A stretch of 37,330 bases of DNA from Bacteroidales bacterium (lineage in GTDB: Bacteria; Bacteroidota; Bacteroidia; Bacteroidales; UBA12077): the NCBI GenBank assembly GCA_021740225.1, contig JAIPAF010000003.1:1-37330 (forward strand). The letters are read 5' to 3'. A program made the position numbers and the translations under genes. Numbering within the stretch: the first letter of the stretch is position 1; the number at the start of each line of letters is the position of its first letter. Shown piece by piece: positions 15,314-31,254 of the stretch. Under the pieces are notes generated by a model that saw only the letters and a list, made by a program, of their open reading frames with translations, had not been told where the DNA came from and ran no database searches.

Positions 15314-16213
15314 GTGGAAATTCACATTGATCAGTTAAACAAGGTTTATAACAAGGATTTTTATGCCCTGAAAGACGTTTCGTTGTCTATTGGCAACGGG
15401 ATGTTTGGCCTTCTTGGTCCCAACGGGGCCGGCAAATCCACTTTGATGCGAATCCTGGTAACTCTCATGAAGCCCACTAGCGGCAAGATTACTGTTGACG
15501 GAAAAAATATCCACAAACACCGAAAAGAAATTCGTAAGATGATCGGATACCTTCCCCAGGATTTTCGATTTTTCTCAAAACTGAAAACATGGGAATTTTT
15601 GGATTATTCTGCTGCCTTATCGGGGATGACCAACAATAAGCAGCGCAAAGAAGCGGTTGATCAAATGCTTGAAGATGTTGGGCTTTTTGATGCCCGCGAC
15701 CGACAGGCAGGAAAGCTTTCGGGCGGAATGAAACGCAGGCTTGGAATTGCCCAGGCCCTCATCAACGATCCCAAACTGATCGTGGTCGATGAGCCTACAA
15801 CCGGTCTTGATCCGGACGAACGGATTCGCTTCCGTAATCTGTTGTCGAAAATATCCGGAGAAGAACGAGTAATCATTCTTTCCACCCATATCGTTGCAGA
15901 CATTTCCAGTACCTGCAACCAAATGGCACTACTCAGTCAGGGAGAAGTTGCCTTTCAAGGAACTCCCGAAGATATTACGGAAAAGGCCCGTGGCAGTGTA
16001 TGGAAGGTAATCCTTACCACCAGGGAGCTGGAAAAGGTAAAAGAGGAATACCCGGTTATCTCTACGGTCATGATGGAAAAAGGATGGGAAGTGATTCTGG
16101 TGGCCGATGACCTCCAAGGCTATCCAGGTGAAAAGATAGAGCCCGACCTGGAACATGCCTACGTATACTTTATGGATAAAGAATTAAACGAATTCATGGT
16201 TAGTGAATATTAA
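15314..16213 (+). CDS. ABC transporter ATP-binding protein (NatA/CcmA-like, ABC-2 exporter type)
   Basis: This 299-aa nucleotide-binding subunit would power an ABC-2 exporter from the cytoplasmic face. It has Walker A GPNGAGKST (35-43), Q-loop region IGYLPQDF, signature SGGMK (136-140), Walker B with D159 and catalytic E160 (VVDEPTTGLDP), and the switch H192. A C-terminal extension of about 80 residues may contact the permease. The start is GTG, since no upstream ATG is in frame and the next methionine is too far in. It is clearly paralogous to the ATPase domain in the 1571-aa fusion protein: both share GMFGLLGPNGAGK, IGYLPQ, ERIRFRNLL and a THI-x-x-DI-x-S-x-CNQ segment. The probable partner is the permease 11 bp downstream. 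Confidence 0.93.
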   Translation: MEIHIDQLNKVYNKDFYALKDVSLSIGNGMFGLLGPNGAGKSTLMRILVTLMKPTSGKITVDGKNIHKHRKEIRKMIGYLPQDFRFFSKLKTWEFLDYSAALSGMTNNKQRKEAVDQMLEDVGLFDARDRQAGKLSGGMKRRLGIAQALINDPKLIVVDEPTTGLDPDERIRFRNLLSKISGEERVIILSTHIVADISSTCNQMALLSQGEVAFQGTPEDITEKARGSVWKVILTTRELEKVKEEYPVISTVMMEKGWEVILVADDLQGYPGEKIEPDLEHAYVYFMDKELNEFMVSEY

Positions 16214-16224
16214 TCAATAAAACA

Positions 16225-19200
16225 ATGTTTTCTTTCAAAAATTTTAATACGGTTGCCCGGTTTGAGTCCAAAACACTCATGCGGAGCTGGTTCTTGCGTA
16301 TTTTTGCAATCATTGCCTTTATCGTACTGATCTTTTTTAATATCCTCGTTTCGCAGCAGGATTTTTCCCCCAGAGTGCTCAGAGGATTACCCACCAATAT
16401 TCCCTACGCATCCCTGTTGATATTTAATGTTATTCAGGCTGTTATAGCTGTTTTCCTTGCAACTGATTTTATGAAAAGGGATAAAAAACAGGATACAACA
16501 GAAGTAATTTACGTACGCTCACTTTCCAATGCAGAATATATTTGGGGCAAAGTATTTGGAAATTTAAAGGTTTTTCTCGGCCTGAATGTGCTTATCCTGC
16601 TTATTCCACTCATATTCACTCTGGTTACCCAGGATATGACACTAAACCTGTTGGGTTACGGCTTATATTTTCTTTTAATTTCACTGCCCACATTATTATT
16701 CATTTTTGGATTATCATTCTTTCTGATGGCATGGCTGAGGAACCAGGCTATCGTATTGCTTGTGCTGTTGGGCTACATTGCCTTAACCCTGTTTTATCTG
16801 GACGATAAGCTCTACTACATCTTTGATTACATGTCATTCAACATTCCCATGATATGGTCGGAATTTATTGGTCTGGCGGATTCTTCCCGTATTATAATGC
16901 ACAGGGCATTATACGTTTCACTGGGAATTGCAATGGTTTTCCTTACGGTTCTTTTAATGAAACGCCTTCGTCAGTCCAATTCGGCTTACTGGATTTCATG
17001 GACCGGCGGGATTCTATTCCTGGGAATTGCTGTATTCCTTGCTGCAAATCATATCGAAAAGGAGACTTCTATGCGCCAATTCCGGAACAAGTTGATCGCC
17101 CTGAATGATCAGTATCTTCAGAATAATTTGCCGAGGGTTCGGGAATATGATCTTGATCTTGTCCACAAAGGAGATAAGGTTCAGATGGTGGCTGAAATGG
17201 AAGTGCTCAATCCCACCGGCGAAAAGCTCGACTCTCTTATTTTCAGCTTAAACCCAGGATTTAAACTGAACAGATGTACCATTGATGGTCAAGAAAACGG
17301 ATACAGAAAAGACCATCATTTGGTTATTATCGATAAAACTTTGAAGCCCGGGGATTCAACTAATATCACTCTACATTATGCCGGCCGGCCAGATGAAAGG
17401 GTATGCTATCTGGATGTTCCAAACCGGCTTCTGTTCAGAGGCGAACATATGATCTTGTTCAGAATGCCTAAAAAATTCAGCTTCACTACTCCCGGTTATC
17501 TGATGTTTACACCGGAACTTTTATGGTATCCTGTAGCGGGAACTGGGTTCTCAACCAAAAATGTAGCGGGTTTCCGAAAGAATTTTGCAGAATATCAATT
17601 GACAGTAGAACCTGCCAAAAATATGACGGTACTCAGTCAGGGGAAAGCCGAAAGGGAAAACGAAAAATGGGTCTTTGAACCCGGAAAACCTATGACATGC
17701 ATGTCGGTTATTGCCGGAAAATACCAGCGGGATTCCCTTACGGTAGATAACATAACCTACAACATCTATCATAAAGCCGGTCATGACATATACAATCCCT
17801 TCTTTAACGATATCCGGGATACCATCCCATCGATCATTAAAACTGTAATGGGGAATTATGAGTCGGATCTGCATCTGGAATATCCCTTTGAAAATTTTTC
17901 CATTATTGAAGTACCGGCTCAATTTCATGCCTATAAGAAGAATTTCACCCTTGCCAATGAAGCTACTTTACCCCAAATGGTATTGATGAAGGAACGTGCA
18001 TTCTCTTTAGACGGTGCTGATTTTCCCCGGTCTTTAAGAAGAAGGCTAACACGGAGTGATAGGGATCGTTCGGCTGAGGATATAAAAGCCGAATTGTTCA
18101 GGCAATTCATTCAGTCCAACTTTATCGAAGGTGAGGATTTTCGCAGGGGGTGGTTCAGAGCCGAGGACATCAGTGGCAACACAAAAATATTCCCCAATTT
18201 TATTTCCTATACCAATGATTTTGGAGTTAAGGAACTTCCCGTGATGAATCCGGTCCTTGAGCGATACATAGAAAGTCGCAGCACAGAAGAGGACAGGAGC
18301 AGATTCTTAGGTAACGACGGAGTGGGAGAAGAAGAGAGAGCAAATCTTCTGTTGAAGAATAATTCATTCGCCGAGTTGATGAGCGATACAGCCCATTTTG
18401 TCCGTCTCAGTGATGTAATCGATATCAAAGGGAGTTACTTTATTGATCTGATGAAGCATTTCTCAGGAAATTTCGACTTCGATCCGGTGCTTGACAGCTT
18501 TATTGTAGCTTCGCGCTATCAAAACAACACCGGTGAGATATTCCTGGATTACATGAAAAACAGATATAATGTAAACACAGAAAAGTATATGAACGACTGG
18601 CTATATTCCAAACAGTTGCCTGCATTTGAATTCACCGATATGGATGCTTACTCTTATTATGAAAAGGAGCGGCCCAGGTATCAGGCAGAAATTACCATCA
18701 CAAATACAGGCAAAGGTTTGGGTATCGTAAATTTGAACATGCGTATAGGACGACGGAGAAACAGCAGTTTGTCGGAAGAAAAGACGGTCATCCTGGATCC
18801 GGGGCAAAGCAAAAGAATCGGATTGTCTGTGGGTGAAGAACCCTCCATGTTAATTGTCAATACGCTTGTCTCTTCCAATTTGCCTTCCACCCTGAATTTT
18901 CCTTTGCAGGATATTAAAGAAGACAAGGATGCCAATGGCGGTGAATTTATCCGGGAGGTGGAACCGCCTTCCTCCGGGGATGAAGCCATTATAGTAGACA
19001 ATGAGGATCCTTCGTTCCGTGTCTTAGTCCCTGAAAAAGCTATAAAGCTGAGGGACCTTATTCAAAACAACCAAAGCCGGGAAGAATATACAGGGGTAAA
19101 TCCCTGGCGTCCACCGGAAGAATGGCAAAAAGCCATCCACAGCAAGTTTTACGGAGAGGTCAAATTATCGGCCAATTATGTCAGAGCCGGTAATGGAGAA

Positions 19201-19509
19201 CAAAAAGCTCTTTGGATGGTGCCCATAAAGGATGGGGGATACTACGAAGTACAGGCCTATGTCTCCGATGCAGGACTACAGCCACAATGGGGCCGCGGCG
19301 GAGAGAATAACGAAGAAAAACTTTATCATTATAAGATATTCCATGACAGCGGTGAAGAGGTTATTCCGGTTAATGCCAGAAACTATGAGGGCGACTGGGT
19401 CTCGCTGGGAGAATATTATTTTTCCCCGGATTCAGCAAAAATTCAAATATCCAATCAATCCAAAGCCAGAACGGTGGTCGCTGACGCCGTTAAACTAATC
19501 CAAAAATAA
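16225..19509 (+). CDS. ABC-2 permease fused to an inactive M1-aminopeptidase-like region and a C-terminal golvesin-like domain
   Basis: This 1094-aa protein has three parts. Residues 1-283 hold about seven membrane helices of an ABC-2 type permease (near 20-42, 57-77, 108-132, 140-165, 170-192, 225-245 and 255-275). From about 300 to 960 is an extracytoplasmic region resembling the M1 peptidase layout: a beta-rich start (YDLDLVHKGDKVQMVAEMEV), then FENFSIIEVPAQF (about 555-567), then helical segments to LDYMKNRYNVNTEKYMNDWL. ABC permease/M1 fusions are a known family, but I find no HEXXH anywhere, so catalysis by the M1 mechanism is unlikely. Residues about 958-1094 (YYEVQAYVSDAG, WVSLGEYYFS, VVADAVKLIQ) match the pattern of golvesin/xanthan-lyase-type carbohydrate-associated beta-sandwiches. 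It likely pairs with the ATPase at 15314. Confidence 0.82.
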   Translation: MFSFKNFNTVARFESKTLMRSWFLRIFAIIAFIVLIFFNILVSQQDFSPRVLRGLPTNIPYASLLIFNVIQAVIAVFLATDFMKRDKKQDTTEVIYVRSLSNAEYIWGKVFGNLKVFLGLNVLILLIPLIFTLVTQDMTLNLLGYGLYFLLISLPTLLFIFGLSFFLMAWLRNQAIVLLVLLGYIALTLFYLDDKLYYIFDYMSFNIPMIWSEFIGLADSSRIIMHRALYVSLGIAMVFLTVLLMKRLRQSNSAYWISWTGGILFLGIAVFLAANHIEKETSMRQFRNKLIALNDQYLQNNLPRVREYDLDLVHKGDKVQMVAEMEVLNPTGEKLDSLIFSLNPGFKLNRCTIDGQENGYRKDHHLVIIDKTLKPGDSTNITLHYAGRPDERVCYLDVPNRLLFRGEHMILFRMPKKFSFTTPGYLMFTPELLWYPVAGTGFSTKNVAGFRKNFAEYQLTVEPAKNMTVLSQGKAERENEKWVFEPGKPMTCMSVIAGKYQRDSLTVDNITYNIYHKAGHDIYNPFFNDIRDTIPSIIKTVMGNYESDLHLEYPFENFSIIEVPAQFHAYKKNFTLANEATLPQMVLMKERAFSLDGADFPRSLRRRLTRSDRDRSAEDIKAELFRQFIQSNFIEGEDFRRGWFRAEDISGNTKIFPNFISYTNDFGVKELPVMNPVLERYIESRSTEEDRSRFLGNDGVGEEERANLLLKNNSFAELMSDTAHFVRLSDVIDIKGSYFIDLMKHFSGNFDFDPVLDSFIVASRYQNNTGEIFLDYMKNRYNVNTEKYMNDWLYSKQLPAFEFTDMDAYSYYEKERPRYQAEITITNTGKGLGIVNLNMRIGRRRNSSLSEEKTVILDPGQSKRIGLSVGEEPSMLIVNTLVSSNLPSTLNFPLQDIKEDKDANGGEFIREVEPPSSGDEAIIVDNEDPSFRVLVPEKAIKLRDLIQNNQSREEYTGVNPWRPPEEWQKAIHSKFYGEVKLSANYVRAGNGEQKALWMVPIKDGGYYEVQAYVSDAGLQPQWGRGGENNEEKLYHYKIFHDSGEEVIPVNARNYEGDWVSLGEYYFSPDSAKIQISNQSKARTVVADAVKLIQK

Positions 19510-19515
19510 ATCATT

Positions 19516-20997
19516 ATGATTCTAAAACGCTTTATTGCTATCTTTTTTTTATCTTTTTTGGTTGTATCAGCCGGCGCACAACAGTTGCTGACACTTGAAG
19601 AAGCGTTGGAAATTGCCAACGACAACAGCCCGGAAGTAAGAAAAAGCCGATTGAACAGGCAACGCAGCAAAAATTTTCTGGATGCGCAAAGGGCTTCGCT
19701 AAAAACCAATTTCAACCTTTCTCTTGAGCCTTTCAACTACTCAAGAGAAGAACGATTTTATGAAATGGAATCCAGGTGGCAAACCACCGAAATGTATTCC
19801 AGCATGGCCAATTTTAGCATTTCTCAGCCAATCACGCTTACAGACGGGGAACTATCCCTGAACAACCGGCTTGCCTGGCAACATTCCACCACGGAAGTAG
19901 GCACACAACTAAACGAAGATATTGCTTTCAGTAACAATTTGTTTCTGCAGTACGAACAGCCCCTGTTCTCCTATAATGAAACCAAACAGAATCTGGAAGA
20001 ACTGGAGCTGGATTACGAAAGGTCAGACATACAATACAGGCTTCAAAAGCTAAACACAGAGGTACAGGTAACCAGAAGCTATTATAATTTGTATGCCTCT
20101 CAAATGGCATTGGAAATATCCAGAGAAGAACTGAAAAATCAGAAGGAGAATTACCAGGTTGTGCAAAACAAAGTAGATGCCGATTTACTGGCCTTAGAGG
20201 AACTTTATCAGGCGGAAGTTAACCTGACCTCGGCACGTTCACAGGTTTATACCCGTGAAGTTCAGCTCCAAAATGCGAAGGATGATTTCAAACAACTCAT
20301 TGGAATGGATCTGGACAGAAATTTCAGGGTTGAACTCGATATAGAGATCGATTCGGTAGATATAAACATGGATAAAGCCATACAGAATGCCCTTGGATCT
20401 CGCCTGGAGATCCGCAACCGGGAGATCGAACTTCAAAACGCCAAGTTCAACCTCATTGAAACCAGTGACCGGAATAAATTTAAAGGAAATGTATCGGTTT
20501 CTGTTGGTGTTCAAGGAGTAGACAAACAATTTGCTGATATGTACGATGTACCTACAACCAGCCCTTCCATTTCGCTAAGCTTTAACGTTCCCATCTGGGA
20601 CTGGGGGGCTCGCGAAGCCCGTATAAAAGCTGCTAAATTGAATGTACAATCCAATCGGATTGATTTGAATGAGGAGTCCAAATCGATTAACCTGGGCATT
20701 CGCCAAACTATACGGAACCTAAGGAATTATAAGAATCAGATAGAGATAGCCAGAAAGAATCAAAAGAATGCCCAACTGACTTATGATATCAACCTGGAAC
20801 GGTACAACAGGGGTGATCTTACCGGAATGGATATTCAGCAATACCAGAACCAACTAAGTCAGGCGAAAATGGATCTGACCACAGCCCTCATCGATTATAA
20901 AATGGAACTGCTTAATCTTAAAATGCAGACGCTGTACGATTTTATAGAAAATGAACCGTTGCTCCCCAAAAATGTAGTTAACAGTATTTTAGAATAA
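19516..20997 (+). CDS. TolC-family outer-membrane efflux protein
   Basis: This 493-aa outer-membrane factor begins with a signal peptide, MILKRFIAIFFLSFLVVSAG, followed by QQLLTLEEALEIANDNSPEV, the standard opening of OEP-domain proteins. The rest consists of two structural repeats rich in long amphipathic helices, for example ALEISREELKNQKENYQVV and LNLGIRQTIRNLRNYKNQIE, around predicted beta-strand segments with aromatic residues. It should form a trimeric channel and periplasmic tunnel that docks with the adaptor encoded 5 bp downstream. It has no lipobox, unlike NodT/OprM relatives. It is the only outer-membrane factor in the cluster, so all pump modules presumably share it. Confidence 0.92.
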   Translation: MILKRFIAIFFLSFLVVSAGAQQLLTLEEALEIANDNSPEVRKSRLNRQRSKNFLDAQRASLKTNFNLSLEPFNYSREERFYEMESRWQTTEMYSSMANFSISQPITLTDGELSLNNRLAWQHSTTEVGTQLNEDIAFSNNLFLQYEQPLFSYNETKQNLEELELDYERSDIQYRLQKLNTEVQVTRSYYNLYASQMALEISREELKNQKENYQVVQNKVDADLLALEELYQAEVNLTSARSQVYTREVQLQNAKDDFKQLIGMDLDRNFRVELDIEIDSVDINMDKAIQNALGSRLEIRNREIELQNAKFNLIETSDRNKFKGNVSVSVGVQGVDKQFADMYDVPTTSPSISLSFNVPIWDWGAREARIKAAKLNVQSNRIDLNEESKSINLGIRQTIRNLRNYKNQIEIARKNQKNAQLTYDINLERYNRGDLTGMDIQQYQNQLSQAKMDLTTALIDYKMELLNLKMQTLYDFIENEPLLPKNVVNSILE

Positions 20998-21002
20998 TAA
21001 AC

Positions 21003-22088
21003 ATGAATTGTATGCATACAAAAACTTTTTTCTTTTTACGAATCCTTTCCGCTATCACCCTCTTTGCGATGATGATTTCCGGGTGTAACCAGGGAGAGAT
21101 CAGCAGAGACAGTGATGTTGCCGTACCTGTGTCGGTTACGGAAGCCAATTATGAAGCCATTAGTGAATTCCTGCAAACCACCGGCACAGTGAATGCTGTT
21201 CATTCAGCAGAGCTGGTGACCAAAGTGGAAGGAGATTATTTTCTTCAAACCAATCCGAGAACCAACCAAAAGTTTGCCCTGGGTGATCAGATAAAAGAAG
21301 GGGAAACACTAATAAAGCTAAAAAACAGGGAATATGAGCTGGGTATTCAGATTGAATCAGTAAAACTGGAGCAGAAAATAGCCAAACAGGAATATGAAAA
21401 GCAACAAGCTCTATACGAAAAGGGGGGGGTGACCCTTCGGGAACTGACCAATGCCGAAAAAACTTATATCAATGCCCAGAATGCTTTAGAAGAAGCCAAA
21501 CTGAACCTGAACAAGCTTTCCGTAACCGCTCCCATCACCGGATTTATCACTCAACTACCCTACTATACCCCGGGAACCCATATGAATGCCAATACCAACG
21601 TTGCCAAAATAATGGATTACCGTGAATTGATGCTGGAAGTGAGTTTTCCGGAGAAAACCCTGCCGATAATTCAGACCGGCCAACAAGTAAGAATAAATCA
21701 TTATTCCCTGGATACAGCGCAAGCCCTTGAGGGTAGAGTAACGGAGATTTCTCCTGCTGTGGATCCGGACACCCGTATGTTTGATGCCAAAATCCGGGTA
21801 CAGAATCAACAAAAACGGCTTCGGCCGGGAATGTTCGTAAAAGCCAATGTTATGGTAGAACATAAAGACAGTGTGATCACTCTGCCGCGGGAAATCGTGC
21901 TCGAGAGAAACGACCGGCAGATCGTATATGTGGTCCAGCAAGACCGGGCCCATGAAAGAAATGTAGTAACGGGAATTGAATCCGGCGACAGGGTTGAGAT
22001 CATTGACGGGATTGAAGAGGATGAACGGGTGGTCACCGACGGCTACGAAACACTGAGGGACCGGAGTAGGGTGAAGGTGCTGCAATGA
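21003..22088 (+). CDS. Periplasmic adaptor / membrane-fusion lipoprotein (AcrA/MacA-like, HlyD superfamily)
   Basis: This 361-aa adaptor has a lipoprotein signal with MISGC (lipidated cysteine near residue 28), which would anchor it in the inner-membrane outer leaflet. Its two lipoyl half-motifs surround a helical hairpin (about 113-160; VKLEQKIAKQEYEKQQALYE and ELTNAEKTYINAQNALEEAK). The hairpin is short, as in RND adaptors. Beyond APITGFI come the beta-barrel region with RPGMFVKANVMVEHKDSVI and the C-terminal membrane-proximal domain with GIEEDERVVTDGYETLRD. It should bridge the inner-membrane pumps to the TolC-like channel. The stop is directly followed by the octamer repeats of the inserted element. 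Confidence 0.92.
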   Translation: MNCMHTKTFFFLRILSAITLFAMMISGCNQGEISRDSDVAVPVSVTEANYEAISEFLQTTGTVNAVHSAELVTKVEGDYFLQTNPRTNQKFALGDQIKEGETLIKLKNREYELGIQIESVKLEQKIAKQEYEKQQALYEKGGVTLRELTNAEKTYINAQNALEEAKLNLNKLSVTAPITGFITQLPYYTPGTHMNANTNVAKIMDYRELMLEVSFPEKTLPIIQTGQQVRINHYSLDTAQALEGRVTEISPAVDPDTRMFDAKIRVQNQQKRLRPGMFVKANVMVEHKDSVITLPREIVLERNDRQIVYVVQQDRAHERNVVTGIESGDRVEIIDGIEEDERVVTDGYETLRDRSRVKVLQ

Positions 22089-22089
22089 A

Positions 22090-22141
22090 GAATGTGAGAA
22101 TGCGTGAATGCGAGAATGTGAGAATGCATGAATGCGAGAAT
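22090..22141 (+). repeat. Left octamer array
   Basis: Six full units and a half unit with an 8-bp period: GAATGTGA, GAATGCGT, GAATGCGA, GAATGTGA, GAATGCAT, GAATGCGA, GAAT. The first three units are repeated by the next three with one mismatch, giving a 24-bp higher-order period. Confidence 0.9.
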
Positions 22142-22167: not shown

Positions 22168-22539
22168 ATGACCGAAAAAGAAATTTTTATTGAAAAGTTG
22201 AAGAAAATTACAAAAGAATTCGCTGTAGATATAATTTTCTTTTGTAATGCATTGAAGACCTGCAAAGCATCATCGGTTGTTGAATATCAGCTTGTAAAAT
22301 GTGCAACCTCAACGGGGGCAAATTACAGATCCGCTTGCAGAGCGAGATCCAAAGCTGAATTTTTTAGTAAAATTTGCATTGTTTTAGAAGAAGCCGATGA
22401 GTCGGACTACTGGCTTGAGATAATAGATACTGCCGGATTATCTGATAACAAAAAAGAATTGACAAGACTCAGAAAAGAAGCCAATGAAATAATAAGAATC
22501 ATAGGAAAAGCAAAAAATTCATCTTTTCCTAACAAATAG
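22168..22539 (+). CDS. Four-helix-bundle protein (23S rRNA intervening-sequence protein family, PF05635/TIGR02436)
   Basis: This 123-aa protein has the family core VEYQLVKCATSTGANYRSAC, then RARSKAEFFSKICIVLEEAD and ESDYWLEI, followed by a C-terminal helix. Relatives are encoded inside 23S rRNA intervening sequences (Leptospira, Coxiella), as free-standing genes in Bacteroidota, and as the Avd accessory protein of diversity-generating retroelements. These form pentameric, basic, nucleic-acid-binding barrels, but the cellular job of free-standing copies is unknown. The gene is more AT-rich than the pump genes around it and sits between inverted octamer arrays, which points to a later insertion into the operon. 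No reverse transcriptase or rRNA is near, so a DGR or rRNA-IVS context is not supported. Confidence 0.88.
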   Translation: MTEKEIFIEKLKKITKEFAVDIIFFCNALKTCKASSVVEYQLVKCATSTGANYRSACRARSKAEFFSKICIVLEEADESDYWLEIIDTAGLSDNKKELTRLRKEANEIIRIIGKAKNSSFPNK

Positions 22540-22591: not shown

Positions 22592-22655
22592 CATTCATAC
22601 ATTGAAGCATTCAAACATTCATGCATTCACGCATTTTAGCATCCAAGCATTTCAT
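22592..22655 (-). repeat. Right octamer array, inverted relative to the left one
   Basis: Eight units with an 8-bp period: CATTCATA, CATTGAAG, CATTCAAA, CATTCATG, CATTCACG, CATTTTAG, CATCCAAG, CATTTCAT. It is more degenerate than the left array. The RND gene starts 50 bp later. Confidence 0.85.
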
Positions 22656-22705: not shown

Positions 22706-25700
22706 ATGATAAAACTAACCCGCTTCTCAGTAAAATACCCGGTAACCATTACAATGCTTGTTTTTGCAGTCCTGCTTCTCGGTTACATCTCATTTAACCG
22801 CCTGGGGACGGACTTGTTTCCCGATTTAAGAAATCCGCGGTTGTTTGTAGAACTTCATTCCGGAGAAAAACCCCCTTCGGAAATTGAATCGAGGTTTGCA
22901 GAAAACATAGAAAGTCTGGGTATACGCCAAAACGGAGTGACCGATGTTTCCACGGAGATTGGTACAGGAAGGATGTTAACCACCATTCATTATGAATGGG
23001 GACAGGACATGAATGCTGCCTTTCTTGATCTACAAAAAGCACTTTCTTCTGTGGCCACCAATCAGGAAGTGGACGAGCTTAACATCTACCAGAACGATCC
23101 CAACGCCGCACCCATCATGAGGGTAATCGTCAGTAATGCGGACATCAATGATATGAATCTGCTGCGACAGACGGCGGAGAATTATATTTATAACCAGTTG
23201 GTGCGGCTGAATGGAGTGGCCGATGTTGAACTCTCCGGTGAAGAAGAGGCGCAACTGCTCATTCAAACGGAAAGCTATCTTATGGACGCTCACGGTCTAT
23301 CCATGGACGAGATATCTTCCCGTATTCAGGCTTTCAACCGTGATATCAGCGGGGGTACGCTTGAGGAAAAAGGAACGGAATATCTCATCACGGGAGAAAG
23401 TTTATTGGGAAAGGTGGAGGATTTTCGCAACCTGATTGTGGGATACCAGCAGAAAACTTCCAGAAACAATGAGCGCACTCAAATTCCTGTCACCCTTGAA
23501 CAAGTGGCTGATGTGCAAATGAAAAACAAAGACCCTGATAACATGGTTTACTTCAACGGGGAGCGGTGTATCGGACTTGCCATTTACAAGGAGCAGGGCA
23601 AAAACACCGTGGATATAGTAAAATTGGTAGACCAGGCCCTGACTGATTTAAACAAGGCTTTGCCGGGCTACCGGTTCACCGTTGTAGAAAACCAGGGAGA
23701 ATACATTGACCAGGCCATTGGTGAAGTAGAAAACACTGCCCTTATCGGTATTTTATTGGCGGTTTTCGTGCTTTTCCTATTTTTACGGCGATTGCGTGTA
23801 ACGCTCATTGTTTCGGTGGCCATCCCCATATCAATCATTGCCACTTTTAATCTAATGTATTTTAACGGTTTAAGCCTAAATGTAATGACATTGGGTGGTC
23901 TTGCCCTCGGGGCCGGTATGCTGGTGGATAATGCCATTGTAGTAATCGAAAATATATTCCGCCACATCGAAGAGGGTTCCTCTGTGAAAGATGCTGCCAT
24001 ACAAGGCACGGCAGAGATGGGAGGAGCCATTACAGCCTCTACACTCACCACCATCGTAGTATTTTTACCTATTGTATACCTGCATGGTGAATCGGGCGAA
24101 TTATTCAAGGAAGAAGCCTGGACCGTGGCATTTTCTCTCTTGTCCTCTCTTTTTGTTGCTCTGCTTGTTATTCCGGTAATGACGGATAAGTGGATCAAAG
24201 CGGAGCGGAAAAAAACATTGAAATCAGTAAATATAGGGTGGTATGGCCGGTGGCTGAGCGGGATTCTCAACAAGCGATGGCTCGTTATTGGACTCAGTGC
24301 AGGTTTGATCGGCTTTGCCGCTTTATTGCTGCCGCGCGTGGGAAGTGAATTCATGCCCAAATCCCAGGGTGGCGCATTTGCTGTTTCAATAGAACTTCCC
24401 GGCGGTACCCGTTTGGAGAAAACAGCCAGGGTGGGCCGGCAGGTGCAGGCTATGATGGACGATGCCTTTGGTGATAAAGTGTCCTATTATTACCTGCATG
24501 TGGGACCCGGAACTGAAGAAGATGCTGCTACTACAGAACTAATGCAGGGAAGCAACTTCGCCAGCATTCAGGTACAACCCAAAGAGGGGGCGGTCATCCG
24601 CCCCGAAGAGGTGATTGCATTGACCAACTCCTCACTAGGTGATGTATCGGGCCTGAAAATAGAATACAAACAAAAACAAACAAGCCTGGATGAGATTCTG
24701 GGAACCGATGCATCTCCCCTTGTCGTCCAAACTTCCGGAGAAGAGCTGGAACAGATCGAATCGATCACCGAGAATATTCGTAAAGAACTTACAGGCATTG
24801 AAGGATTGTATGACGTAAAAACCAATTTTGATAAGGGCGCACCTGAAATTGAAGTCCGCGTAGACCGGTACCAGGCGGGAATGTACAATATCAGCCTGGA
24901 TCAGATAGTCAATCAGATTGAAAGGCAATTGACCGGAATGGAAATAGGGGAGTTCGACAGGGAAGGAGAGATGACCGATATTACCCTGAAATTACCTGAT
25001 TTGAGCAGAAAAGACCTTGAAGAGCTGGAGTTGAGATCGGGGAATCAGGTTATACGGCTGGACCAGATTGCCACCTTCCATACCGGTCAGTCACCGGGAA
25101 AGATATACCGGGAAAACCAAAAACGGGTGGGTAAAGTAATGGCCCGTATTGAAGAGGATATAACCCTGGATCGTGTGGTCAAAAAAGTAAATGCCAAACT
25201 GGCCGGGATAGAATTCCCAGCCCGTTATCAAACAGAAATCACAGGAGAAGAACAAAAGAGAGCAGAATCTTTCGCAAGTCTAAAATTTGCACTCATACTC
25301 TCCATCATTCTGGTATATATGGTGATGGCCTCGCAATTCGAAAGTCTGCTACATCCCATGACTATTCTGCTTTCACTGCCTCTTGCTTTCACCGGTCCCG
25401 TATTTTTATTTCTTGGAATAGGTGAATCATTTAACATCATAGCATATATTGGCATTATCATGCTGGCAGGAATAGCGGTGAACAACAGCATCATCCTTGT
25501 TGATGCCATCCGCCGGTATCAGCGACAGGGAATGGTAAAGCGGGATGCCATATTACAAGCCGGGCAAAACCGTATAAGACCCATTGTGATGACCAGCATT
25601 ACCACCATTCTGGCGCTATTACCGTTAACCATTGACTTCGGTCAGAGTGCCGAGCTCCGTTCCCCAATGGCCTGGGCTGTTATAGGAGGTTTGATCACAT

Positions 25701-25789
25701 CAACCATCCTTACGCTAGTGACCATCCCTTGCGTGTATTACATTTTTCAGCGAAAAGAAGTATTGTCAAATCCGGAAGATCAGGAATAA
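22706..25789 (+). CDS. RND efflux pump, inner-membrane permease (HAE1-like)
   Basis: This 1027-aa protein is a full-length RND transporter: one N-terminal helix, a large periplasmic loop, six membrane helices (about 335-500), a helix at about 522-542 opening the second half, a second periplasmic loop, and the last helices (about 865-1015). Family hallmarks include FPDLRNPRLFVEL, MLVDNAIVVIEN in TM4, GSEFMPKSQGG, and the final helices PIVMTSITTILALLPL. Proton-relay positions differ from AcrB: TM4 has D408-N409 in place of Asp-Asp, and TM10 has N926-N927 in place of Lys-Asn (GIAVNNSIILVDA). One relay aspartate is thus retained while the second aspartate and the lysine are both asparagine. It should work with the lipoprotein adaptor and TolC-like channel upstream. 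It is followed after 9 bp by the RND-ABC fusion, so a heteromeric RND (MdtBC-like) is possible. Confidence 0.93.
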   Translation: MIKLTRFSVKYPVTITMLVFAVLLLGYISFNRLGTDLFPDLRNPRLFVELHSGEKPPSEIESRFAENIESLGIRQNGVTDVSTEIGTGRMLTTIHYEWGQDMNAAFLDLQKALSSVATNQEVDELNIYQNDPNAAPIMRVIVSNADINDMNLLRQTAENYIYNQLVRLNGVADVELSGEEEAQLLIQTESYLMDAHGLSMDEISSRIQAFNRDISGGTLEEKGTEYLITGESLLGKVEDFRNLIVGYQQKTSRNNERTQIPVTLEQVADVQMKNKDPDNMVYFNGERCIGLAIYKEQGKNTVDIVKLVDQALTDLNKALPGYRFTVVENQGEYIDQAIGEVENTALIGILLAVFVLFLFLRRLRVTLIVSVAIPISIIATFNLMYFNGLSLNVMTLGGLALGAGMLVDNAIVVIENIFRHIEEGSSVKDAAIQGTAEMGGAITASTLTTIVVFLPIVYLHGESGELFKEEAWTVAFSLLSSLFVALLVIPVMTDKWIKAERKKTLKSVNIGWYGRWLSGILNKRWLVIGLSAGLIGFAALLLPRVGSEFMPKSQGGAFAVSIELPGGTRLEKTARVGRQVQAMMDDAFGDKVSYYYLHVGPGTEEDAATTELMQGSNFASIQVQPKEGAVIRPEEVIALTNSSLGDVSGLKIEYKQKQTSLDEILGTDASPLVVQTSGEELEQIESITENIRKELTGIEGLYDVKTNFDKGAPEIEVRVDRYQAGMYNISLDQIVNQIERQLTGMEIGEFDREGEMTDITLKLPDLSRKDLEELELRSGNQVIRLDQIATFHTGQSPGKIYRENQKRVGKVMARIEEDITLDRVVKKVNAKLAGIEFPARYQTEITGEEQKRAESFASLKFALILSIILVYMVMASQFESLLHPMTILLSLPLAFTGPVFLFLGIGESFNIIAYIGIIMLAGIAVNNSIILVDAIRRYQRQGMVKRDAILQAGQNRIRPIVMTSITTILALLPLTIDFGQSAELRSPMAWAVIGGLITSTILTLVTIPCVYYIFQRKEVLSNPEDQE

Positions 25790-25798
25790 GCCTTCACT

Positions 25799-28700
25799 AT
25801 GAACAAATTTGTAAAGCGAAAAATACTGGTCTCCATGCTGTTCCTGGCTTTAGTCATGCTGGGAATCTTTTCCTATCGATCGATGCCGGTTGAACTATTT
25901 CCAAGCGCCGAAACACCGGTACTCTATGTCCAGGTAAACTACCGTTCCCAAATAAACCCTCATTTTGTGGAAAAGGATGCCATCATTCCCCTGGAGGGGA
26001 TCATCAGTGAAGAAGAAGGTGTTGATGAGCTGGAATCGAACATTTCACAAAGGCGGGCAACCATTGTGGTTACCTTCAGGCAGGATGTGGACATCAACTA
26101 TGCTTATCTGAAGCTGGAGCAAAAGATACAGGAGTTTCAGCGGGAACACCGGGAAAACTATATGGTAAACCTGGTCAAGGTCAATACCGACATGTCCTCC
26201 AACCAGTTTATGACCATCCAGGCGCGGGGTGAAGGCGATATCGACCGGATTCGGAATGTCGTTGATCAGGAGATCCTTTCCGATCTGGTGGCAGTGAATG
26301 GCGTAGGTGATGCTACGGTTCAGGGAGGACAGGAACGATCCGTTGAAGTAATTTTTGATGAGGAAACCTGTGAGGCCCTTCACATCACACCCGGAAGGAT
26401 CAATAACCGGCTCAATATGTATTCCAATCAGCGGCTATATGGCGGGATGGTCTATGATGTGGGCAAACGCTGGATTGTAAACGTATCCGGTGAATTAACC
26501 AGCATCAATGAACTAGGGGATATCATACTGGATGACAACGGTAACGTTCGTCTGCAGGATGTGGCTACAATCAACATGGGAAAAAAAGAGCGGGAAACCA
26601 TCAGCCGTGTAAACGGCATGGAAGCAGTGACCATAACGATCTATAACGACGCCAATGTAAATGATATCACACTCTACCATAAGCTACAGGATGCCATAGA
26701 AAATATTAACTCGGAGATGGCTTCCAATCGAGTTGAACTGGTTATCCAGAGCTGTGAGGCTGAAACCATGGAAGAGAACATGAATCAGATACTCAGCCTT
26801 GCTTTAATCGGCGGATTACTGGCCATCTTCGTCCTATGGATATTCCTGCGGAACATACGTTTGGTAGTTGTTGTGGCGCTTGCGATACCCATTTCCATCT
26901 TCGCCTCGATTAATTTTCTCTATGCTGCCGGCATTACCATCAACACGCTCACTTTAATGGGTGTGGCCCTGGCCATCGGGATGCTCCTGGATAACAGTGT
27001 GGTGGTGCTGGAAAATATCTATCGGTTAAGGACAGAAGGTGCCACTCCAGTAGGTGCTGCATCCGGAGGAACAAGACAGGTGATCCGTGCCGTGACGGCC
27101 GCTACTCTTACAACAATAGCCGTTTTTCTGCCCTTTGCATTTTCTACAGAGTTCTTCATTAAACTCTTGGGGAACAATGTGGGGTTTTCCATTATTTTTA
27201 CCTTGCTGGTGTCGCTTCTTGTGGCACTAATATTTATACCGATGGTGGTATACCAATTCCTCAAAGCCCGCAGGAAAGCCCTGACCCTCCATTCGATAAA
27301 TTTTCGAAAACCAATAATTCGCGGATACCTGATATTGTTAAGATTTTGTCTGCGCCATCCTGCCCAGGTGCTCTTTACCATGGTCTTGCTATTTTTTGCC
27401 GCAGTAGTGATTAGTCTGTCAGTTAGTGTAAACACCCTACAGGAAGCGGAAACAGACAGTTTTCGGGTTTCAATCACCATGCCGGGGGGTACAACCCTGA
27501 AAACCTCCGATGAAACGGTAAGCAATATGGAGGACGATCTCGGAAATATAGAGGAGATTGATGAAGTAGTCAGCAACATTGAAGCAGAAGAAGCTTCCAT
27601 GATCATCCAATTGAAGGAAGAGTTTAAAAAGATCAACGACCGGAGTGTAGCTCAAATAAAAGATGATGTACTGAATAGGCTGGATGTATATAACAACGTT
27701 CATGTTAGCATTACGGACATGACCTCGTCTGATGACAGCAACTTCAATATTGGAGGCGGTGCTTCAGATTTTTTGAGTTTCATGGGTGTCGGACAACAAA
27801 CGGAAGAGGTGCTCATCAAGGGTTCGAATTATGAAGATATGGTTTTGGTTGGTGAAAATGTAGAGTATATACTTTCTGAAGAATCGGATAATGTAACCTC
27901 GGCGCGCCTGCAAATATCGCGTGAACAGCCGGAGGTGAGGGTACTTTTCGACCAACGCCTAATGGAGGCTTTAAATATAGATTACACCAGTGTGCAACAG
28001 GAGATGAACGCTTTCTCCAGGCAACTCGAGAGTGGTATGACCTTTAAACAGGGTGATGAGGAATACGATATTACCATACGCAGCAAACAGGCTGAAGAAA
28101 ATCAAAAAGAACAAAAAGGCATGGAAGATCTCCGGCATTTGCTCATAGATGCTGACAATGATAGTGTTGTTTCCTCCCATCATCTAATGGATTTCAGTTC
28201 CCTGCGCTATAGTGAAGGAATTGCTTCCATTCACCGGCAAAACAGGGAAAAAAGCATCTCGGTAAATTACCGCTTTTCATCTGAAATCAATGAAGACAAT
28301 GATTTGCTGGAGAGTGCCCGTGCCGAAGTAGACGAACTGATTTCCGGTTTATACGTTCCACCGGGAGTAGCGGTAGAAGTACAGCATGAGCAGGATCAAT
28401 ACGGTGAATTCAAAATGCTTATTCTTGCTGCCTTTATACTGATCTATATGATCCTTGCTTCCGTATTTGAAAGCTTTTCCACCCCATTCGTCCTGTTGTT
28501 TTCCATACCCTTGGCGGCCATCGGATCGCTCATGGGGCTCATTTTAACCGGAAATTCCCTGCTCAATGCCAATACCCTTATTGGGTTTCTCATCCTCCTG
28601 GGAGTGGTGGTCAATAATGGGATCATACTGATTGATTTTGTGCAAAATATGAGGTTCAATGGAGCCAGGATTGCACGAGCCGTTATCAGTGCAGGATTGC

Positions 28701-30514
28701 TTCGTGTGCGCCCGATTCTCATTACCGTGATCACCACAGTTATAGGAATGCTTCCACTGGCCATGGGACAGGGCGAATATGTAGGTAGCATTGGAGCTCC
28801 TTTTGCCATCACAGTGATTGGCGGGTTGCTGTTTTCCACCTTGTTCACACTGGTAATCATTCCCACCGCCTACTACGCAATGGAAACCACCCTTCGTTGG
28901 TTTGCTTCGCTTCCGCTTCACATCAAGATCATCAACTGGATGCTTTTGCCGGCAGGTATAGTGCTGGCCATCATAGAGGCGGATACCCTGCTGTGGCAAA
29001 TGGTTGGCGTGGTTGCCGTATTGACTGTTGTGCCTGCAACGACCTGGTTTTTCACCGAAAGCCTGCGTAAAGCATCAGCGGACGTAATCGACAGAAATAG
29101 TGACATCGTTATCCGTATCCGAAACCTGGTAAAAATCTATGACCGGCCTTCAAGACCCCTGCGTGAATGGCTGGGGAACAAGCATCTGAATGAACTCCTT
29201 GGTATGGGAGAAGAAAAACAAAATTCACGTCAGGAGCTGATATGGCAGATGCCGCTTCTGGGCTTCCTCGGATGGTTTGCCTGGTTTTATCAGTCGGGGG
29301 GATTTTGGACATACATCTTATCTGTGGCGTTATGGTTTTACTTAATTTTCCTGATTAAACGTCTCATTACCCTGTTTCCCTCATCCCGTGTTAAAAGATG
29401 GTTTTCCCGGCTGCATTGGATTGTTCTTCGGTTTTTCCCTCTTGTTATACTCGGAGTCTATCAAATCAAATTCACGAATACGGGAGCCACGGTTGTCTGG
29501 GGATTACTCACTTATTTCCTTCTGGGCATTTATCTTACTTCACAACACCTCAAGGAAAACCGGGTGAACACCGCCCGCATCAAAGGGCGTTTTGCCGGTC
29601 TGAAAAAACTATGGATAAACCTTGTGCGCGCCGTGCCGATGATCGGTCGTGAGCGAAAGCCTTTCAAAGCGCTGAAGAGTGTCTCGATGGATATCGGTCA
29701 TGGAATGTTTGGCCTGCTTGGCCCCAACGGAGCAGGCAAGACAACCCTGATGCGGATTATATGTGGTGTGCTGGAGCAGAGCTATGGGAAGATCACCATC
29801 AACGAGATCGATACCCTTGAAAAACGGGAAGAATTGCAGGGGTTGATCGGATATTTGCCCCAGGAATTCGGCATGTATGAAAATATGACCGCCAGGGATT
29901 ACCTGGATTACCAGGCCATACTCAAAGGTTTGCACAATCCGCAAACCCGTAAGGAAAGGGTGGACAATGTATTGCAGTCGGTTCACATGATTTCCAATGC
30001 CAATAAAAAGATCGGTTCGTTCTCAGGGGGTATGAAACAACGGATAGGAATTGCCCAGGTATTGCTGAACCTACCCCGTATACTGGTGGTGGATGAGCCA
30101 ACAGCCGGACTGGATCCCCGTGAACGCATCCGCTTCCGAAATCTTTTGGTAGAGCTGAGCAGTGAACGGGTAGTGATCTTCTCTACCCATATTATCGAAG
30201 ATATTGCCAGTTCGTGCAACCAACTGGCAGTGCTTGACAAAGGAAACCTGAAATATTACGGAAAACCGGCTGAGATGGCATCACTGGCAAAAAACAGGGT
30301 ATGGCAGTTTGATGTTCCGGCAGAACAATTTGAAGGGATAGCCCAGGATTTGAAAGTGGTTCATCATATAAGAAAAGGAGAAAATATCCGTGTGAGGGTA
30401 GTGAATCCCGACAAGCCGCATGAAAATGCCCAAAATGTTACTGCTGTGCTTGAAGACGCCTATATATGGCTCCTGAACTTCAGCGGAAAAAACAATACAA
30501 TTCAATCATCTTAA
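25799..30514 (+). CDS. RND pump fused to a membrane linker and an ABC nucleotide-binding domain
   Basis: This single 1571-aa reading frame combines two transporter classes. Residues 1 to about 1030 are an RND pump with TM4 D398-N399 (MLLDNSVVVLEN) and TM10 N939-N940 (VVVNNGIILIDF). Two extra membrane helices follow (about 1040-1085). Residues about 1103-1115 (IVIRIRNLVKIYDRP) look like strand 1 of an ABC ATPase. About 170 residues with four predicted helices (near 1151-1168, 1170-1192, 1206-1222 and 1231-1250) and a basic stretch come next. The ATPase then resumes at about 1288 (FKALKSVSMDIGHGMFG). It has Walker A GPNGAGKTT (1308-1316), signature SGGMKQ (1409-1414), Walker B D1432 and E1433, and H1464, so it looks catalytically competent. 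The ATPase is paralogous to the one at 15314 and is probably paired with the permease that follows. No frameshift or stop is seen at the junctions. Confidence 0.92.
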   Translation: MNKFVKRKILVSMLFLALVMLGIFSYRSMPVELFPSAETPVLYVQVNYRSQINPHFVEKDAIIPLEGIISEEEGVDELESNISQRRATIVVTFRQDVDINYAYLKLEQKIQEFQREHRENYMVNLVKVNTDMSSNQFMTIQARGEGDIDRIRNVVDQEILSDLVAVNGVGDATVQGGQERSVEVIFDEETCEALHITPGRINNRLNMYSNQRLYGGMVYDVGKRWIVNVSGELTSINELGDIILDDNGNVRLQDVATINMGKKERETISRVNGMEAVTITIYNDANVNDITLYHKLQDAIENINSEMASNRVELVIQSCEAETMEENMNQILSLALIGGLLAIFVLWIFLRNIRLVVVVALAIPISIFASINFLYAAGITINTLTLMGVALAIGMLLDNSVVVLENIYRLRTEGATPVGAASGGTRQVIRAVTAATLTTIAVFLPFAFSTEFFIKLLGNNVGFSIIFTLLVSLLVALIFIPMVVYQFLKARRKALTLHSINFRKPIIRGYLILLRFCLRHPAQVLFTMVLLFFAAVVISLSVSVNTLQEAETDSFRVSITMPGGTTLKTSDETVSNMEDDLGNIEEIDEVVSNIEAEEASMIIQLKEEFKKINDRSVAQIKDDVLNRLDVYNNVHVSITDMTSSDDSNFNIGGGASDFLSFMGVGQQTEEVLIKGSNYEDMVLVGENVEYILSEESDNVTSARLQISREQPEVRVLFDQRLMEALNIDYTSVQQEMNAFSRQLESGMTFKQGDEEYDITIRSKQAEENQKEQKGMEDLRHLLIDADNDSVVSSHHLMDFSSLRYSEGIASIHRQNREKSISVNYRFSSEINEDNDLLESARAEVDELISGLYVPPGVAVEVQHEQDQYGEFKMLILAAFILIYMILASVFESFSTPFVLLFSIPLAAIGSLMGLILTGNSLLNANTLIGFLILLGVVVNNGIILIDFVQNMRFNGARIARAVISAGLLRVRPILITVITTVIGMLPLAMGQGEYVGSIGAPFAITVIGGLLFSTLFTLVIIPTAYYAMETTLRWFASLPLHIKIINWMLLPAGIVLAIIEADTLLWQMVGVVAVLTVVPATTWFFTESLRKASADVIDRNSDIVIRIRNLVKIYDRPSRPLREWLGNKHLNELLGMGEEKQNSRQELIWQMPLLGFLGWFAWFYQSGGFWTYILSVALWFYLIFLIKRLITLFPSSRVKRWFSRLHWIVLRFFPLVILGVYQIKFTNTGATVVWGLLTYFLLGIYLTSQHLKENRVNTARIKGRFAGLKKLWINLVRAVPMIGRERKPFKALKSVSMDIGHGMFGLLGPNGAGKTTLMRIICGVLEQSYGKITINEIDTLEKREELQGLIGYLPQEFGMYENMTARDYLDYQAILKGLHNPQTRKERVDNVLQSVHMISNANKKIGSFSGGMKQRIGIAQVLLNLPRILVVDEPTAGLDPRERIRFRNLLVELSSERVVIFSTHIIEDIASSCNQLAVLDKGNLKYYGKPAEMASLAKNRVWQFDVPAEQFEGIAQDLKVVHHIRKGENIRVRVVNPDKPHENAQNVTAVLEDAYIWLLNFSGKNNTIQSS

Positions 30515-30540: not shown

Positions 30541-31254
30541 ATGGTAAAACTGATAAAACATTGGCTTATCAACTCCGTGCAAATCACCCGGCACAACCTG
30601 AAAATCATATTCGGGGATAAATTTCCCTTCTTCCTGTTGGGGGCATTTGCCATATTCATCTTCATCGTGTTAATCAATTTGTTCGGGGGTGATCCGTTCA
30701 CCAGTGAATCGGTTTATTCACTGCTGGTCTTTGAAGGGATCATCATCGTATTTTTCCCCACCATCTATGCGGTACAGACGGATATTGACAAACGGACCAT
30801 AGAGATTCTTTTCGGCATTCCCGATTACCGTTATAAAGTATGGCTAGTACGCCTTCTGATCGCCTTCATCGTATGCTGGGTTCTTCTGGCGGTACTGGCC
30901 CTGATGTGCTATTTCGCACTGGTCAGTTTTCCCGTGGGCACCATGATCTATTATGTCATCTTTCCGGTTTTTGCCCTGGGAAGCCTGGGATTCCTCATTG
31001 CAACCCTGGTAAAAAACGGAAACAGCGCTGCGGTTGTAGCTATAATCATTGGTTTGGGCTTATGGGTATTATCCGAGGCATTGGTAGATAGTCAGTGGAA
31101 CGTCTTTCTCAACCCGTTTGATGAGGCCGATATGGCCGGACAAATATGGGAAGCTACCATAAGGAAGAACCGCCTGTTCCTTTTCGTTGCCGGAGTGGTA
31201 TTTCTTGTGGGTGGTTTACTAGGTCTCCAGAACCGGGAAGGGTTTATGCAGTAA
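30541..31254 (+). CDS. ABC-2 type permease, small (NosY/GldF-like)
   Basis: This 237-aa integral membrane protein has about six hydrophobic helices: FFLLGAFAIFIFIVLINLF, SLLVFEGIIIVFFPTIYAV, LLIAFIVCWVLLAVLALMCY, MIYYVIFPVFALGSLGFLIA, VVAIIIGLGLWVLSEALV, and LFLFVAGVVFLVGGLLGL. The opening ITRHNLKIIFGDKFPF and the segment TDIDKRTIEILFGIPDYRYK before helix 3 are typical of ABC-2 permeases that keep contact with a NatA-like ATPase. No separate ATPase gene follows, so its natural partner is the ATPase domain at the C-terminus of the RND-ABC fusion encoded just upstream. An earlier in-frame ATG at 30466 would overlap that gene and add an uncharacteristic polar stretch, so it is not preferred. Confidence 0.85.
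   Translation: MVKLIKHWLINSVQITRHNLKIIFGDKFPFFLLGAFAIFIFIVLINLFGGDPFTSESVYSLLVFEGIIIVFFPTIYAVQTDIDKRTIEILFGIPDYRYKVWLVRLLIAFIVCWVLLAVLALMCYFALVSFPVGTMIYYVIFPVFALGSLGFLIATLVKNGNSAAVVAIIIGLGLWVLSEALVDSQWNVFLNPFDEADMAGQIWEATIRKNRLFLFVAGVVFLVGGLLGLQNREGFMQ

Follow-up and report, generated by a model that had tools for sequence, protein, structure and literature searches.

A probable ABC-2 permease family with a zinc-site-less M1-fold ectodomain and a golvesin-type domain, fixed in a composite ABC/RND operon

A conserved operon around the permease gene

The window, i.e. the whole stretch of 37,330 nucleotides analysed here, contains a gene for a 1094-residue protein that combines a probable ABC-2 permease domain with an M1-aminopeptidase fold and a carbohydrate-binding-module (CBM) sandwich of the golvesin/xanthan-lyase type (Table 1). 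The frame, whose coordinates, strand and length are exactly as first annotated, starts with ATG 11 bases past the stop of an ABC ATPase gene (ATPase 1) and ends 6 bases ahead of a gene for a TolC-type channel. NCBIfam holds no model for this protein, which is referred to below as the pseudo-M1 protein.

Table 1. Features of the pseudo-M1 locus, with positions in the window
Feature	Position	Strand	Details
ABC ATPase 1, permease partner	15314..16213	+	299 aa; PF00005 E 2.2e-35
ABC-2 permease / pseudo-M1 / golvesin-type protein	16225..19509	+	1094 aa
Permease domain	16225..17073	+	aa 1-283; elbow helix and seven predicted TM helices (model helices)
M1-fold ectodomain without zinc ligands	17098..18924	+	aa ~292-900; VIA-align Z 20.6, profile match
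Helix replacing the HEXXH helix	18073..18126	+	aa 617-634; AELFRQF at 622; conserved His absent
Helix, probable site of third zinc ligand	18244..18282	+	aa 674-686; register by motif, not superposition
Golvesin/xanthan-lyase-type CBM sandwich	18970..19506	+	aa ~916-1094; PF25275, VIA-align Z 18.2 to 6f2p
TolC-type outer-membrane channel	19516..20997	+	PF02321 E 8.9e-40; 73/73 loci with enough flank
HlyD/RND-type periplasmic adaptor (MFP)	21003..22088	+	TIGR01730 over cut-off; 68/68 loci with enough flank
RND permease 1 (RND1)	22706..25789	+	PF00873 E 5.3e-215; 62/63 loci with enough flank
RND permease 2 fused to ABC ATPase domain (RND2::ABC)	25799..30514	+	1571 aa; ACR_tran 2-1028, ABC_tran 1292-1436
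Small ABC-2-like permease	30541..31254	+	237 aa; weak ABC2_membrane_3 E 0.002, below cut-off

The Walker A, signature, Walker B and H-loop motifs of ATPase 1 are intact, and its gene lies upstream of the pseudo-M1 gene in all 76 loci with enough flank among the best 80 of 381 candidate loci (see below). An inner-membrane pump, an adaptor and TolC are encoded together at the window locus, i.e. the gene set of a tripartite efflux system. The full order, running from the ATPase through the pseudo-M1 protein, TolC, adaptor, RND1 and RND2::ABC to the small permease, recurs in nine of nine whole-operon loci in addition to the window; a tenth locus was left out of this count because its contig ends inside RND2. 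Alignment with homologues places the start of the small permease at 30541, as the listed start (30466) falls inside the preceding gene. Conservation of a biosynthetic partner gene next to the operon was not observed.

The RND2::ABC fusion forms a chain of 1529–1574 residues in 9/9 complete loci. Its halves are joined via a membrane-rich linker, an unusual arrangement and perhaps the most unexpected one in the operon. The sole exception to the presence of RND1 is a KSB1 locus (L076), where the ABC unit, TolC and the adaptor are followed by unrelated genes instead of RND genes. The RND pair may therefore be dispensable there, with the caveat that this genome is a MAG. Together with a second KSB1 MAG, whose locus (L064) lies at a contig end, it possibly represents an RND-free form of the pseudo-M1 system.

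Several smaller features accompany the operon. Between the adaptor and RND1 genes lies a four-helix-bundle gene of the 23S rRNA-intervening-sequence type (22168–22539), flanked by 8-base tandem repeats at 22089–22141 and 22592–22651; small ORFs of similar length are found within the operon of G007, G014 and L077. In three same-family relatives (loci L143, L145 and L147 of genomes G007, G006 and G014), ATPase 1 is directly preceded by a second ABC ATPase, an ORF of ~265 residues and two small ORFs of 127 and ~209 residues, a set that is absent from this place in genome G010.

The window's own assembly (57% complete) has one copy of the pseudo-M1 gene. Of 117 relatives, most of them from the same order, 30 gave matches at E 0.001; about 20 of these have full-length or nearly full-length homologues, the others having short golvesin-type or weak matches. 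Scanning 84,980 species genomes with a profile yielded the 381 candidate loci, and the best 80 were kept. These come from Bacteroidota (Prolixibacteraceae, Marinifilaceae and others), KSB1, Latescibacterota, Krumholzibacteriota, Calditrichota and Melioribacteraceae. Because the search patterns lie in the permease, this set was not selected by the zinc motif. Furthermore, a permease profile run across 148 genomes matched only family members and one 541-residue ORF.

Domain architecture of the pseudo-M1 protein

The protein was modelled with AlphaFold2 from a 59-row alignment (pLDDT 83.4, pTM 0.80). The model has seven transmembrane segments (helices 22–43, 58–88, 102–134, 142–171, 174–190, 220–244 and 252–296). 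Given this odd number and an N-terminus on the inside, the helix count would place the remainder of the protein outside the cytoplasm; the Lys/Arg-rich loops at residues 83–100 and 245–251, as read from the sequence, are consistent with such a topology. Assignment to the ABC-2 class is probable and comes from the family, in which 10 of the 13 members scanned match ABC2_membrane_2 (best E 1.7e-6); the window protein by itself gives no match at E 1. In addition, the permease domain matches the second permease half of the ABC/M1 fusions described below with a profile E of 5.8e-17, as compared with only 1.7e-5 and 9.1e-5 for two other permease families used as a control. A PDB search with the permease profile alone returned no matches. 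Within the protein, conservation is highest in the permease, with a mean column identity of 62% vs 46% for the ectodomain, in which many Trp, Gly, Pro and acidic residues are invariant across the family.

The first-pass annotation had read an M1-like layout into residues 300–960. Structure prediction indeed gives an M1 fold and not an unrelated one. The predicted ectodomain superposes on IRAP (4z7i_A) over 462 residues with an rmsd of 5.2 (VIA-align Z 20.6), and on the two-domain Deinococcus M1 enzyme (6a8z_B) over 387 residues with an rmsd of 4.6 (Z 20.4). The profiles agree: the family matches the cold-active aminopeptidase 3cia (E 1.7e-6) and tricorn factor F3 (E 1.6e-5), and its profile-profile comparison with HEXXH-bearing M1 peptidases gives 99.4% and an E of 1.1e-21. 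For the window protein on its own, Pfam M1 (PF01433) is sub-threshold, with 11.2 bits at residues 735–792 vs a cut-off of 27.7. The likeness to peptidase family M1 (IRAP, ERAP1, Deinococcus two-domain M1, ColAP) comprises the fold of domains I–III and a profile match of the C-terminal helical part. The end of the region had to be revised, since the M1-type part, including a domain-III-like sandwich, stops near residue 900.

What follows is a golvesin-type domain, as had been proposed for residues 958–1094. The type is supported by Pfam Golvesin_C (PF25275), which matches residues 966–1092 with an E of 5.8e-16 and 59.2 bits, above the curated cut-off of 31.6, and a match was obtained in 13/13 family members scanned. 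The start was misplaced and lies near residue 916, because a VDNED strand conserved in the family belongs to the domain. When residues 916–1094 were predicted alone (pLDDT 82.1), the closest structure was the C-terminal domain of xanthan lyase 6f2p (134 residues, rmsd 2.3, VIA-align Z 18.2), followed by CBM35 and CBM6 modules at Z 10–13 (11–13 for CBM35). The domain thus measures about 179 residues, with the VDNED strand coming first and a helical insert (residues 937–946) after the first strands. It resembles Golvesin_C and the CBM6-CBM35-CBM36_like_2 relatives (xanthan lyase 6f2p, Cbeg4/5) both in sequence, above the cut-off, and in fold, and differs from them in its helical insert and in sitting on a membrane exporter.

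A lost zinc site and the catalytic sister family

Unlike peptidase family M1, the window protein has neither HEXXH nor the conserved Glu that serves as third zinc ligand. The absence of HEXXH from all 1094 residues had been reported in the first-pass annotation and is borne out here; it extends to the family, as none of 80 homologues (the best 80 of 381 candidate loci, from several phyla) has the motif anywhere. A homologue outside these 80 (L021) has HETKH at residue 885, in the C-terminal sandwich, which is not the zinc site. A missing five-residue motif would by itself mean little. It becomes significant because homologous ABC/M1 fusions (see below) keep HEXXH in 14/14 cases, vs 0/80 in the pseudo-M1 family.

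The ligand positions were therefore inspected in 81 aligned sequences. The register of the former zinc helix is uncertain by one helical turn, HEXXH falling near residue 618 by hhalign and near 622 by motif reading. This uncertainty is immaterial, since no column between residues 612 and 640 has a conserved His in the 81 sequences, the maximum being 3/81 at residue 630. At residue 676, the likely position of the third-ligand Glu ~18 residues downstream, the window protein has Pro and 49/81 sequences have Arg; with the register set by motif, Glu occurs in 0/81. In the absence of HEXXH, of a conserved His in the zinc helix and of Glu at residue 676, the alignment indicates that the classical M1 zinc site is missing throughout the pseudo-M1 family. 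A hidden zinc site built from other His residues was also considered and rejected at the sequence level: between residues 283 and 900, only H314, H365 (45/81) and H520 are His in at least about half of the family, none of them in the helical domain, and no aligned sequence keeps the His set of the zinc helix. The proposal that the domain is a pseudo-enzyme thus holds, as far as the alignment can tell, for an M1 fold devoid of zinc ligands. No HEXXH-bearing intermediate was found within the family, either in the best 80 of 381 loci or among full-family matches from 296 Bacteroidota genomes.

The existence of bacterial ABC-2 permease/M1 fusions, which the first reading had taken as known, was confirmed by fourteen examples (L164–L177) from other Bacteroidota. 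These are chains of 1185–1228 residues with two permease halves and an M1 domain, and all fourteen keep HEXXH and the downstream Glu. An ATPase gene adjoins every one of them; no TolC, adaptor or RND genes were found beside them in the stretches read, and no golvesin domain in the six that were scanned. The window family matches permease half 2 plus the M1 domain of these fusions across the full length of these parts (profile 99.8%, E 1.4e-30). Judged from these profiles, the permease and M1 parts of the two families share common descent. The two-gene systems (L164–L177 and L198) and the pseudo-M1 system thus have in common permease half 2, the M1 fold and an adjacent ATPase of the same group. 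They differ in that the former carry two permease halves per chain and HEXXH, whereas the window protein has one seven-helix half and lacks the motif.

The ATPases add to this kinship. ATPase 1 and the ATPase domain fused to RND2, its nearest paralogue in the same operon, are 43% identical. Other ATPases in the searched genomes reach about 36–38% at best and over shorter stretches, with the exception of the ATPase of the G010 catalytic fusion. In a maximum-likelihood tree, ATPase 1, the RND2-fused ATPases and the ATPases of the catalytic fusions form one group (support 95/96), each set being confined to one side of a branch. The root is unsure, as the five outgroup rows are long-branched. By sequence and tree, the two ATPases of the operon and those that serve the catalytic ABC/M1 fusions share ancestry.

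Possible role in an envelope-spanning exporter

It seems to us somewhat likely that the pseudo-peptidase ectodomain, with its CBM-type domain, serves as a periplasmic scaffold that receives and hands over substrate within an ABC/RND/TolC exporter. An ancestral M1 aminopeptidase ectodomain would have become a non-catalytic scaffold and acquired a domain of the carbohydrate-binding type. ATPase 1 would drive the pseudo-M1 permease inside an envelope-spanning system of TolC, adaptor, two RND pumps and a second, small permease. The permease would draw its substrate from the cytoplasm or the inner leaflet, and on the periplasmic side this cargo, probably a glycan, a glycoconjugate or else a peptide, would be held by the golvesin-type domain together with what was once the peptidase cleft, before it is passed onward to the RND/adaptor/TolC conduit. 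Array experiments have shown glycan binding by isolated golvesin-type domains from the Bacteroides lectins Cbeg4 and Cbeg5 (PMC9166713), which by analogy makes glycan binding plausible for the golvesin-type domain of the window protein. The closest precedent in logic is HlyB of type 1 secretion, where a degenerate C39-like domain keeps hold of the cargo but does not cleave it (PMC8277102). There too, the peptidase domain of an exporter has lost catalysis; the holding of cargo is established for HlyB and suggested here by analogy. The two are not kin, as the HlyB domain has an unrelated fold, a cytoplasmic position and an ABC transporter of a different type.

Other roles for the ectodomain have to be weighed. 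It might bind no cargo and act as a mechanical or docking element that transmits ATP-driven movement and holds the adaptor and TolC, like the periplasmic part of MacB. The genes for TolC and adaptor directly downstream (73/73 and 68/68 loci) fit this role, as does the higher conservation of the permease; yet retention of the CBM-type domain in all members scanned would then have no explanation, and we regard the proposal as unlikely. A still less probable alternative is that the golvesin-type domain and the ectodomain fasten the exporter to a polymer of the envelope, such as peptidoglycan or the glycan of LPS. Here, the CBM35/CBM6-like fold and the array binding of the same domain type elsewhere would speak for putative glycan binding that serves positioning and not cargo recognition.

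Two further alternatives concern the M1 fold itself. It could have remained an enzyme that uses another active site or another metal, to which the invariant acidic residues E431, D532, E562 and E590 and the near-invariant H314 and H520 would lend themselves. However, the three His columns noted above, with none in the helical domain, make this very improbable. Loss of the enzyme site might also mean that the ectodomain is a functionless evolutionary leftover, an idea hardly compatible with its many invariant residues and with the intact full-length frames and fixed domain order in the best 80 of 381 loci, across several phyla.

Returning to the hand-over scaffold, the composition of the operon raises the question of how its ABC and RND parts are joined. 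One possibility is a heterodimeric ABC unit, formed from the two ATPases and the two permeases and linked to the RND pump through RND2::ABC. As evidence for such a heterodimer, the preference of the small permease for half 1 of the catalytic fusions (2.7e-7 vs 6.4e-4) was considered and discarded, because other ABC-2 permeases, taken as a control family, favour that half still more strongly (1e-10). The idea therefore stands on the ATPases and the gene order. More tentatively, and with considerable doubt, we raise the possibility of a single hybrid machine using both ATP and the proton gradient. In such a machine, ATPase 1 would pair with the pseudo-M1 permease and the RND-fused ATPase with the small permease, this heterodimeric ABC-2 exporter would be covalently tied to RND through RND2::ABC, and the dead peptidase with its CBM-type domain would be the hand-over station to the adaptor and TolC. 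The system resembles the MacAB-TolC and RND-MFP-TolC tripartite pumps in having TolC, an adaptor and RND permeases, known here from their genes. It departs from them in that an ABC-2-type permease takes the place of MacB and that there are two RNDs, one of which is fused to an ABC ATPase.

Each of the components is already known: the M1 fold, the golvesin-type domain, the ABC/M1 fusion and the tripartite pump. What is new is a protein that is a pseudo-enzyme throughout its family, bears a CBM-type tail and is a fixed member of a composite ABC/RND operon. A literature search, of incomplete coverage, found nothing on ABC/M1 fusions, RND-ABC fusions, hybrid transporters or either system described here. 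The conserved covalent fusion of an RND permease with an ABC ATPase suggests that ABC and RND transporters, usually regarded as separate energy classes, can function as one unit. Moreover, the catalytic ABC/M1 family and its sister, in which catalysis was lost, a CBM-type domain gained and an RND/TolC apparatus joined, form a clean natural pair, so that the role of a peptidase domain on an exporter becomes testable by comparison. Genome G010, from an organism well suited to such a comparison, carries both systems, a catalytic HEXXH-bearing ABC/M1 fusion (L198) and a pseudo-M1 system.
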